Part shown: piece by piece, positions 1,984 to 44,696 of the stretch
How the letters are laid out: every line of letters starts with the position of its first letter
How positions within the stretch are numbered: position 1 is the stretch's first letter
Assembly (NCBI RefSeq): GCF_014645235.1
Contig: NZ_BMLM01000001.1
Location: forward strand, 1,550,001 to 1,614,000
Length of the DNA: 64,000 nt
Direction of reading: 5' to 3'
From: Agrococcus terreus
GTDB lineage: Bacteria > Actinomycetota > Actinomycetes > Actinomycetales > Microbacteriaceae
Program-made: the position numbers and the translations under genes
Notes under the pieces: generated by a model
Databases searched by the model: none
Told to the model about the DNA's origin: nothing
What the model saw: only the letters and a program-made list of their open reading frames with translations

Positions 1984-2631
1984 ATGACCGACGACCTCTT
2001 CGCAGAGCCCCAGCTCGACGTCCCGCCCGCCGAGCCCGCCACGACCGCGCGGCGCGTCGTGGTCGCGGAGGACGAGTCGCTCATCCGCCTCGACATCGTC
2101 GAGACGCTGCAGGCCGCGGGCTTCGAGGTCGTCGGCGAGGCGGGCGACGGCGAGCGCGCCGTCGAGCTCGCGACGGAGCTCTCGCCCGACCTGGTGGTCA
2201 TGGACGTGAAGATGCCGAAGATGGACGGCATCACGGCCGCCGAGCGCATCGGCAACGCCAAGCTCGCGCCCGTCGTGCTGCTCACCGCCTTCAGCCAGAA
2301 GGAGCTCGTGGAGCGCGCCGGCGAGGCCGGTGCCCTCGCGTACGTGGTGAAGCCGTTCACGCAGAACGACCTGCTGCCCGCGATCGAGATCGCGCTCGCC
2401 CGCTGGGACCAGATCCGAGCGCTCGAGGCCGAGGTCGCCGACCTGGCCGACCGCTTCGAGACCCGCAAGCTCGTCGACCGCGCGAAGGGCCTGCTGAACC
2501 AGCGCATGGGCCTGTCGGAGCCGGAGGCGTTCCGCTGGATCCAGAAGGCGTCGATGGACCGCCGCCTGACGATGGCCGAGGTCGCCGCCGCCGTCATCGA
2601 ACAGCTCGGCGAGAAGAAGCCGAAGAAGTAG
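1984..2631 (+). CDS. pdtaR: ANTAR-domain response regulator (PdtaR type)
   Basis: The 215-residue protein has a receiver domain at about residues 24-140 (acidic pocket Glu29-Asp30, phospho-acceptor Asp74 in VVMDVKMPKMDG, Lys in YVVKPF). A C-terminal ANTAR RNA-binding domain follows at about 148-205 (KLVDRAKGLLNQRMG, with AFRWIQKASMDRR). ANTAR regulators prevent transcription termination by binding paired stem-loops in RNA. In mycobacteria the orthologue PdtaR is activated by the cytoplasmic kinase PdtaS and also lies near pyk. No kinase is adjacent here, so the partner should be elsewhere. The TAGGCT box 7 bases upstream of the ATG and the absence of a Shine-Dalgarno sequence predict a leaderless mRNA. 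Confidence 0.92.
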   Translation: MTDDLFAEPQLDVPPAEPATTARRVVVAEDESLIRLDIVETLQAAGFEVVGEAGDGERAVELATELSPDLVVMDVKMPKMDGITAAERIGNAKLAPVVLLTAFSQKELVERAGEAGALAYVVKPFTQNDLLPAIEIALARWDQIRALEAEVADLADRFETRKLVDRAKGLLNQRMGLSEPEAFRWIQKASMDRRLTMAEVAAAVIEQLGEKKPKK

Positions 2632-2684: not shown

Positions 2685-2800
2685 GAGTGGTCACCTCCCG
2701 CGAGGGAGTGGCCACTTCGTGCATCGAGTGGTCGTCTCTTGCTGGGATCGGTCGCTTCCTGCAGCAGATGGTGACCAGTGATCGCGCGGATCGACCACTC
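2685..2800. repeat. Left phased repeat array (6 units, 20-21 bp pitch)
   Basis: Six copies of a degenerate hexamer core begin at 2689 (GGTCAC), 2710 (GGCCAC), 2730 (GGTCGT) and 2750 (GGTCGC) in plus orientation, then 2771 (GTGACC) and 2791 (TCGACC) in minus orientation. Steps are 21, 20, 20, 21 and 20 bases. Most units share further bases, with a consensus near GGTCRC-TTC-N-TGC. The stretch from 2652 to 2883 holds no convincing gene and is visibly less GC-rich than its surroundings. The array sits upstream of the DUF559 gene and is mirrored by a second array downstream. Confidence 0.85.
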
Positions 2801-2883
2801 GATCATCGTTCGCACATCGGCTGCTCTCCACATCGCTGTCCCGACGTCGCACGAGCGTTCGGCAGGGTGAGCACGATGCGGCC

Positions 2884-3753
2884 ATGCGCTCCGAACACGC
2901 CTTCACCGTCCGCGACGCACTCGACTCGGGGATGACGCCCGCCGAGCTTCGCTCCGCCGCCTGGGATGCCCCGGCGCGCGGGGTGCGGACCGCGCCGGCC
3001 GCACCGGGCGGGCTGCTCGACGCCATCCGGGCGCTCGCCGCCGACGACCAGTACTTCTCGCACACGACGGCCGCGCTGATCCACGGCATGCCGCTGCCGC
3101 GTCGCCTCGAGGAGGACCCGCGCGTCCATCTCGCCTCGCCGACCGGAGCCGGCCGGATGCGGCGGCCCGGGGTCGTCGGGCACCGGCTCAAGTCCGAGGT
3201 GGTCCTGATCGACGGCGCGCGCGTCGAGGCTCCGGCGGACGCGTTCGTGCACCTCGCGACGCTGCTCTCGGTCGACGAGCTCGTCGCGATCGGGGACTGG
3301 CTGGTGTCTCCGCAGCGGTCGCAGCCATCGTCCGTCGAGGAGCTCGCAGCGGCGATCCGCCGCTACGCGGGCGCGCGCGGGCTGGCGAAGGCGCGCCGAG
3401 CGCTGGCGCAGGTGCGCGTCGGCGCGGAGTCGCCTCGCGAGACCGCGATGCGGCTCCTGGTGGTACGGGCAGGCCTGCCAGCGCCGGTGCTGCAGCACGA
3501 GGTCCGCGATGCGTTCGGGCTGTTCGTGGGGCGCCTCGACCTGGCGTGGCCCGCGCTGCGGCTCGCCGTCGAGTACGACGGCGAGCACCACTTCGCCTCG
3601 GCGGAGGCGATGGAGCGCGATGTCGCGCGGCTGCGCGAGCTTCGGAGGCTGGGATGGACGATCATCCAGGTGACGAAGCGCGACCTGCGCGACGGCGGCA
3701 GGCAGATCGTCCGGACCATCGCCGAGGCCTTCGCGAGCTGCGCGGCGCGCTGA
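2884..3753 (+). CDS. AbiEi-N-like / DUF559 endonuclease-like protein
   Basis: The 289-residue soluble protein has two parts. Residues 1-130 resemble the N-terminal winged-helix region of AbiEi-type antitoxins (FTVRDALDSGMTPAEL, then FSHTTAALIHGMPLP). Residues about 190-285 are a DUF559 domain of the PD-(D/E)XK/Vsr-like nuclease superfamily: Asp219 in GRLDLAWP, Glu230 and Asp232 in AVEYDGEHH, and IIQVTKRDL near residue 262. These acidic residues and the lysine suggest an intact metal-dependent nuclease site. No AbiEii-type toxin gene is adjacent, so it is not a standard type IV toxin-antitoxin pair. A CACGAT box 6 bases before the ATG and no Shine-Dalgarno sequence suggest leaderless expression. 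The gene stands alone between two phased repeat arrays. Biological role unknown; nuclease activity is inferred. Confidence 0.85.
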   Translation: MRSEHAFTVRDALDSGMTPAELRSAAWDAPARGVRTAPAAPGGLLDAIRALAADDQYFSHTTAALIHGMPLPRRLEEDPRVHLASPTGAGRMRRPGVVGHRLKSEVVLIDGARVEAPADAFVHLATLLSVDELVAIGDWLVSPQRSQPSSVEELAAAIRRYAGARGLAKARRALAQVRVGAESPRETAMRLLVVRAGLPAPVLQHEVRDAFGLFVGRLDLAWPALRLAVEYDGEHHFASAEAMERDVARLRELRRLGWTIIQVTKRDLRDGGRQIVRTIAEAFASCAAR

Positions 3754-3826
3754 GCCCCGGACGCTGTCAGCTGGGTCGGGCGGGCTCGACGCGACTGCAT
3801 CCGCCGCGCCGCTCGCGTCGCGCATC

Positions 3827-3960
3827 GATCGGTCACGTTCGGCGATCAGTGGTCAAGATCTGCTGCACGAAGCGACCGATGACGACAGTTCTCGACCGGT
3901 CGATGCAGAACGTGACCGATCACGAGCAAGGAGTGACCAGTCGGGGGCACGAGCTGACCG
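3827..3960. repeat. Right phased repeat array (7 units, 20-21 bp pitch)
   Basis: Seven copies of the left-array core follow the DUF559 gene: plus orientation at 3831 (GGTCAC) and 3851 (GGTCAA), then minus orientation at 3872 (GCGACC), 3892 (TCGACC), 3912 (GTGACC), 3933 (GTGACC) and 3954 (CTGACC). Steps are 20, 21, 20, 20, 21 and 21 bases. Read in their own direction, the 3872 unit (GGTCGC TTC G TGC AGC) nearly matches the left-array unit at 2750 (GGTCGC TTC C TGC AGC). Bases 3754-3983 contain no gene. The array ends about 25 bases before the stop codon of the convergent thioesterase gene. Confidence 0.85.
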
Positions 3961-3983
3961 CTCGGTGGCGGGGCGCCGCCGCC

Positions 3984-4415
3984 TCAGCGGGTGCGCTTGA
4001 TGAAGTTCGTGATGCGGATGGTCGAGGCGCGTCGGCCCTCGTCGTCGGTGCAGACGATCTCGTGCACCGTCATGGATCCGCCGAGGTGCAGCGCGCGGCA
4101 CTCAGCGGTGACCCAGCCCGAGGTGATCGAGCGCGTGTGCGTCGCGTTGAGGTCGACGCCCACGGCGACGGCGCCCTCGCCCGCGTGGATGTTCGCGGAC
4201 ACCGAGCCGAGCGTCTCGGCGATGACGCAGTACGCGCCGCCGTGCACGAAGCCGACCGGTTGGCGGTTGCCCTCGACGGGCATGCGCGCGATCGAGTGCT
4301 CAGCCGAGAGCTTCACGAACTCGATGCCCATCCGCTCGGCGAGCTCGCCTCCGGGTCGTCCGCCGCGCCGCTCCAGCAGCGCGTCCGTGGCCTCGTCGAC
4401 CTCGTGCTCGGTCAC
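3984..4415 (-). CDS. PaaI-family hotdog thioesterase
   Basis: The 143-residue protein has the PaaI/4-hydroxybenzoyl-CoA thioesterase hotdog signature FVHGGAYCVIAETLGSVSA, where the HGG loop binds the CoA thioester, and the later strand VGVDLNATHTRSITSGWV. Such enzymes hydrolyse acyl- or aryl-CoA thioesters in the cytoplasm; the substrate cannot be read from the sequence. The chosen start is GTG at 4415, giving VTEHEVDEATDALL, because GAGGAG lies about 6 bases upstream. A longer in-frame reading to 4787 would run antisense through polA and is rejected. It is divergent from polA, with starts 52 bases apart. Confidence 0.88.
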   Translation of the reverse strand: MTEHEVDEATDALLERRGGRPGGELAERMGIEFVKLSAEHSIARMPVEGNRQPVGFVHGGAYCVIAETLGSVSANIHAGEGAVAVGVDLNATHTRSITSGWVTAECRALHLGGSMTVHEIVCTDDEGRRASTIRITNFIKRTR

Positions 4416-4454
4416 GCGCGCTCCTCGCTCGATGGGGGTGTCGGCAGGCCGGGA

Positions 4455-44643: not shown

Positions 44644-44696
44644 CCGCACGACGAAGCGGCCGTCCCTCCTCGGAGGGCGGCCGCTTCGTCGTGCGG
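44644..44696. terminator. Bidirectional terminator between rbpA and pgl
   Basis: A perfect 19-bp outer stem (44644-44662 with 44678-44696) is capped by a 6-bp inner stem. It is the strongest hairpin in the window and serves both convergent operons. Confidence 0.9.

Follow-up and report, generated by a model that had tools for sequence, protein, structure and literature searches.

The locus described here is, in our view, fairly probably the 'mother' copy of a REPIN/REPtron-like system in which a Vsr-like nuclease, AbiEi-like in its N-terminal region, takes the place of a Y1 transposase. The locus lies in a 64-kb stretch of DNA, called the window below (G000:C1:1550001-1614000), from a host genome of 2.83 Mb; positions are counted from the first letter of the window. 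The association between the nuclease and its repeats is well supported. By analogy with known systems, we infer that the nuclease may bind, cut or spread these repeats.

The nuclease gene (2884..3753, + strand) encodes a protein of 289 amino acids, and it is assigned from profile matches, homologs and a predicted structure. The protein scores 34.4 bits against the profile MTES_1575 REase (curated cut-off 38.2) and 19.4 bits against DUF559 (20.6), slightly short of the cut-off in each case. The first-pass annotation, which had called it a nuclease of the Vsr-like/DUF559 kind, was right on this point. The same annotation had given the protein an AbiEi N-terminus, and here the outcome is mixed: no AbiEi match is detected in the window protein (Pfam, E <= 1; PADLOC, E <= 0.1), whereas the PADLOC AbiEi model matches 19 of 23 aligned relatives, and Pfam AbiEi_4 matches 2 of the 23. 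A structure model built from 7 sequences has a mean pLDDT of 69.2, with residues 1-44 and 83-108 below 50. Its best Foldseek match is to the homing endonuclease I-Bth0305I, in the catalytic domain (PDB 3r3p; probability 1.00, target TM 0.77, E 0.023); no Foldseek match of the model has E <= 0.001, and the match between the two proteins in sequence is weak (E 0.48). Among 90 homologs, E186 is retained in 90, D219 in 89, H236 in 85 and D246 in 90, and this retention speaks for an active enzyme. In our own reading of the sequences, these residues would correspond to the EDxHD motif.

Phased arrays lie on both sides of this gene. Scored against the consensus GAGTGGTCACTTCNTGC, array 1 (2685..2800) consists of + units at 2685, 2706, 2726 and 2746 followed by - units at 2764 and 2784, each with 1-5 mismatches, and array 2 (3827..3963) consists of + units at 3827 and 3847 followed by - units at 3865, 3885, 3905, 3926 and 3947. 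The unit at 3885, with 8 mismatches, is the sole weak one among the 13. The units are 17-mers at a pitch of 20-21 bp, and in both arrays 18 bp separate the start of the last + unit from that of the first - unit. The 4+2 and 2+5 arrangement at this pitch, first noticed by inspection, is thus confirmed by the scoring. The chained-array score is 36 for array 1 and 18 for array 2; the rest of the window does not exceed 7, and 20 Markov-1 random sequences of 64 kb have maxima of 8-12, a comparison that is somewhat circular because the unit was derived from the host genome's own arrays. The two arrays are real and far above chance. It had also been said that nothing else in the window resembles them, and all 6 pattern matches in the window (up to 3 mismatches) do fall within the two arrays. 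The RNA fold z relative to mononucleotide shuffles is -6.3 for array 1 and -3.6 for array 2.

The gene and its arrays are framed by conserved neighbours: on the left, a response regulator with an ANTAR domain (1984..2631, + strand), and on the right, a thioesterase-like gene (3984..4445, - strand; named by eye, extent approximate). Far from this locus, the window also contains a strong lone hairpin of 53 bp (44644-44696) with a sequence unlike that of the arrays, probably a terminator.

In the host genome, the arrays are not private to the nuclease gene. A whole-genome pattern search allowing up to 3 mismatches gives 64 matches (33 forward, 31 reverse), compared with 7 (3 forward, 4 reverse) in the backward control of the same search, and the matches build 12 further inverted arrays of the same design as those in the window. 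These dispersed arrays sit between unrelated genes, so that the occurrence of repeats equally at unrelated genes, which the first-pass annotation had named as speaking against its proposal, is found in part. The 18-bp distance between the starts of the last + and the first - unit recurs in 13 of the 14 host arrays; the exception is L009, where the central - unit is not recognised. All 14 arrays are more stable than mononucleotide shuffles (fold z -2.3 to -10.3). A known RNA family was rejected for the arrays: an Rfam search of 13 loci returned a tRNA and two matches far below the gathering scores, and nothing more. In a family-wide search for the GGTCAC pair, a few genomes outside the genus reach 10-12; the unit is lineage-specific, because the counts outside the genus are mostly near the control level.

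The site of the gene was fetched in 24 genomes of the genus by way of the left-hand response regulator. The nuclease gene is present at this one conserved site in 18 of the 24 genomes. It is missing in 5 (G005, G006, G012, G020 and G023), where absence was judged at the home site alone (tblastn within about 1.5 kb) and in few lineages, one of the five genomes being 65% complete; in G010 the contig ends at the site, and the gene call excludes this genome. By eye, repeats lie beside the gene on both sides in every one of the 18 gene-bearing genomes, and the unit varies between species while being of the same type on the two flanks. A strict regular expression with a pitch of ~20 bp finds at least 4 units upstream in 15 of the 18 and at least 3 downstream in 12, where several of the downstream stretches end with the fetched piece and the units of G008, G014 and G019 are few or diverged. 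Since the upstream units mostly point rightward and the downstream units leftward, the gene is at the centre of one inverted array in most gene-bearing species.

Whole-genome abundance of the unit goes with the gene as well. Of the 18 gene-bearing genomes, 17 have 18-99 phased GAKTGG pairs, the exception being G004 with 5, whose unit is GAGCGG; the five genomes with no gene at the site have 0-4 phased unit pairs, a background level; and G010 has 61 GAKTGG pairs. The backward control for such pairs gives 1 to 27, with the 27 in gene-bearing G011. Several further observations can be made at these loci. The home interval, from the response regulator to the thioesterase-like gene, holds palindromes of other families in the gene-less G006 and G020. 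The G004 ortholog (L087) matches in two pieces that lie in separate reading frames, pointing to a frame break at about 681-685; its arrays are still present. G007 has a second family gene (L077, 3068-4185), and arrays of a related unit are found on its flanks too. In G001 and G002, several contigs start or stop within arrays (for example, G002:C5:10-155); it therefore appears that assemblies break at the repeats, and true copy numbers may be higher than those counted.

Presence and absence of an array can be compared in the interval between dnaE and hisD (gene names by eye), with G017 left out. The interval was scored by eye because a regular-expression unit count missed units of the GGCG type. 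Arrays are present there in 6 of the 24 genomes (G000, G010, G011, G013, G016 and G021), 14 others have an interval of 18-154 bp with no array by eye, and G004, G022 and G023 have other sequence between the two genes. In G022 (L287), tandem copies of a different repeat, GTTGGTCGAGGAGCG..., occupy the interval downstream of dnaE. The unit of the G016 array is unlike that beside the G016 nuclease gene, which counts against a strict rule of one enzyme and one unit, unless a paralog accounts for the mismatch.

The host genome has four further family genes, 26-45% identical to the window protein. All five carry a repeat of their own on both flanks, differing from gene to gene, and no GGTCAC-type arrays are found near the four paralogs. 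The expectation that DUF559 genes would be flanked by GGTCRC units is therefore right as to the presence of flanking repeats and wrong as to their sequence, which is gene-specific; GGTCRC does not mark DUF559 genes at large, given that the four paralogs have other palindromes. Some of these repeats also occur away from their genes: the L004-type palindrome is found at five other places in the host genome, one of which resembles sequence matched in other species too, and the L005 type has a single copy elsewhere.

Homologs of the family are found in 114 of the 148 genomes searched in the class. For 90 loci in 50 genomes, the 400 bp upstream of the gene was compared with the 400 bp downstream, in either orientation and ungapped; the loci come from high-scoring homologs and do not sample the family at random, and related ones do not count as independent. 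Loci L141 (score 400, contig-end coordinates), L131 (short flank), L154 and L211 (both cut off by contig ends) were dropped. As controls, 247 genes outside the family were taken from the window and from 16 arbitrarily chosen stretches in these genomes. A shared flank repeat with a score of at least 16 is found at 73 of the 90 family genes vs 8 of the 247 controls, and at a score of at least 20, the numbers are 67 of 90 vs 0 of 247. When flanks are instead paired across loci (8190 pairs, L141 included), 2.0% reach 16 and 0.55% reach 20. Some of the 17 family genes with no shared flank repeat at 16 retain a strong one-sided hairpin. Among the named genomes (Microbacteriaceae and others), 8 of 9 loci reach 16, and the ninth is a truncated match. 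The proposal that the arrays go with the nuclease gene is upheld by these counts.

The 20-bp pitch, which had been expected of DUF559 genes at large, does not hold across the family; in the majority of its members, palindromes of about 45-75 bp are found instead. Both flanks bear hairpins (self-complement score of at least 20) at 24 of the 90 family genes vs 3 of the 247 controls, and hairpin potential near control genes is common, with 68 of 247 downstream flanks at 16 or above. Repeats are shared across loci in 24 of 43 pairs with at least 60% protein identity, and in 21 of 3847 pairs below 45%. At L189, the two flanks of the family gene carry the same 69-bp direct repeat without any difference, which suggests recent copying.

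One palindrome was followed in a distant genus. The hairpin TTGATCATGGAGAA...TTCTCCATGA, searched for in 30 genomes, has 14-69 strand matches in 5 of the 6 genomes tested from that genus and 0 matches in the other 25 genomes. It adjoins a family gene in G277, G259 and G329, and in G277 it is found at 41 places at least. All 20 of the 20 G277 copies compared are exactly 59 bp long, where the search pattern permitted 30 different lengths. The inner pairs of the arms covary among these copies (e.g. TA in 11 and GC in 6; CG in 8 and TA in 7), the outer 14 bp of the arms being fixed by the search pattern. Of the 20 sites, 10 have convergent genes on their two sides, 4 same-direction genes and 2 divergent genes; another 3 fall within a called frame, and 1 is unassigned. 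Dispersal as inverted, hairpin-forming copies, mainly between genes, is thus seen for three repeat families: the window unit, the L004 type and the G277 hairpin.

The closest parallel is the REPIN-RAYT system (REPtron). In PMC3116915 and PMC3733652, the RAYT gene is described as non-moving and flanked by its own repeat, with hairpin copies dispersed elsewhere. The likenesses are an enzyme gene framed by palindromic repeats of its own, hairpin-folding inverted doublets dispersed between genes, an enzyme gene that is single-copy and distinctive (with vertical inheritance judged here within the genus) and repeats that lie mainly between convergent or same-direction genes. Unlike REPIN-RAYT, the enzyme here is a Vsr-like nuclease instead of a Y1/HUH tyrosine transposase, the GTAG tag is absent from the window unit GAGTGGTCACTTCNTGC, and the arrays of this genus are built of multiple 20-bp units around a fixed centre of 18 bp. 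A conventional RAYT as the mover was ruled out: the Y1 transposase domain (PF01797) is found in 0 of 30 genomes, repeat-rich ones included, with the control rings at 5 of 14. The pattern of flanking and dispersed hairpins, together with a non-RAYT enzyme and no Y1, favours a system that works in the same way but evolved independently.

In such a system, the N-terminal and middle regions of the nuclease would recognise the gene's own repeat, in the form of paired half-sites or of a hairpin, extruded or single-stranded, and the C-terminal domain would cut at or near it. Repair or replication would then copy the element into new intergenic places, and the arrays may arise by tandem growth of the 20-bp unit. 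Neither target-site duplications nor excision junctions were noticed among the copies. The nuclease gene itself would not move, as RAYT genes reportedly do not. According to PMC3943268, I-Bth0305I dimerises on a target of nearly 60 bp, and by analogy a target of this length would suit a palindrome of 45-75 bp. Among the options in the first-pass annotation, the one in which the arrays are the ends of a small mobile unit agrees with this reading.

The same comparison brings up a homing-type selfish element, in which empty sites are cut, the gene and its repeats are recombined in, and the dispersed repeats are footprints left after loss of the gene. The best fold match is to a homing endonuclease at probability 1.00 and target TM 0.77, the catalytic fold and, in our reading, the retained E, D, H and D residues are those of the EDxHD/Vsr-like homing endonuclease I-Bth0305I, its reportedly long target (nearly 60 bp, PMC3943268) would fit as well, and several sites do lack the gene. 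We nevertheless consider homing unlikely. In 18 of 24 genomes the gene keeps to a single site, and independent gene loss would not be expected to leave an 18-bp centre in 13 of 14 host arrays. As for I-Bth0305I itself, its sequence match is weak, the relatives here carry an AbiEi-like N-terminal region, and the window gene, unlike EDxHD homing endonucleases, is free-standing between flanking repeats and not in an intron or intein.

It is distinctly unlikely that the arrays are an autoregulatory operator, through which the AbiEi-like region would repress its own gene, with the downstream and dispersed copies as by-products or a wider regulon. An N-terminal region of the AbiEi type, matched in 19 of 23 relatives, agrees with this idea, and array 1 lies directly upstream of the gene, where phased sites would suit cooperative binding. 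Against it, the repeat is shared past the stop codon in 73 of 90 genes, the inner hairpin arms covary, and, with a simple gene caller, 0 of the 12 dispersed host arrays lie in the intervals between divergent genes. The operator on its own, another of the options first put forward, thus fails on the repeat beyond the stop codon, the dispersed copies and the paired changes in the hairpin arms. Resemblance to the AbiE type IV toxin-antitoxin systems is likewise limited to the N-terminal region, which is AbiEi-like in 19 of 23 relatives; no AbiEii-like partner is apparent next to the gene, whose neighbours are the response regulator and the thioesterase-like gene (by eye), and the AbiEi-like region is fused to a nuclease domain, with no AbiEi match in the window protein itself.

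The repeats could also act as RNA, as terminators or mRNA-protecting hairpins that the nuclease adjoins by chance. Their strong folding (z -2.3 to -10.3 over 14 arrays) and their location at 3' ends or between convergent genes would be in keeping with such a role. This explanation is very improbable, since chance linkage is excluded by the 67 of 90 vs 0 of 247 flanks at a score of at least 20, and gene-specific sequence is unnecessary for terminators. Defence, in which the nuclease would attack foreign DNA and the flanking repeats would be a protected self-mark or control site, is the least credible of all: its whole support is that the nuclease and AbiEi have kin in the PADLOC library, there is no partner gene, and the orthologs lie between housekeeping genes, not in a variable island.

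The preferred reading, a nuclease-driven counterpart of REPIN-RAYT, can be set against what has been published. Caulobacter VsrA has the same kind of DUF559/PD-(D/E)XK nuclease domain and has been linked to cytosine methylation; flanking repeats are not mentioned in the portion of that paper at hand (PMC12907096). A literature search that covered few subscription journals and no preprints found nothing tying DUF559 or Vsr-like genes to flanking or dispersed palindromes, and the evidence points to a repeat-spreading system that is, as far as could be found, undescribed so far. In the literature consulted, the enzymes tied to the dispersed palindromic repeats of bacteria are Y1 transposases (RAYTs), and a large class of repeats, the CGTC REPs, is said to have no dedicated enzyme (PMC3733652).

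More broadly, we give about an even chance to the view that Vsr-like/DUF559 nucleases are a second, independent class of enzyme for dispersed palindromic repeats, widespread in Actinomycetia, with one repeat family per paralog. If so, this class would account for REP-like elements in high-GC genomes that have no RAYTs, and gene-specific repeats owned by a nuclease of a different superfamily would be a case of convergence. It would also suggest what a very common protein family, so far without a known role, may do, and it would pair enzyme with DNA in a way that can be tested, with dozens of natural enzymes that each have a putative site on both flanks of the gene.
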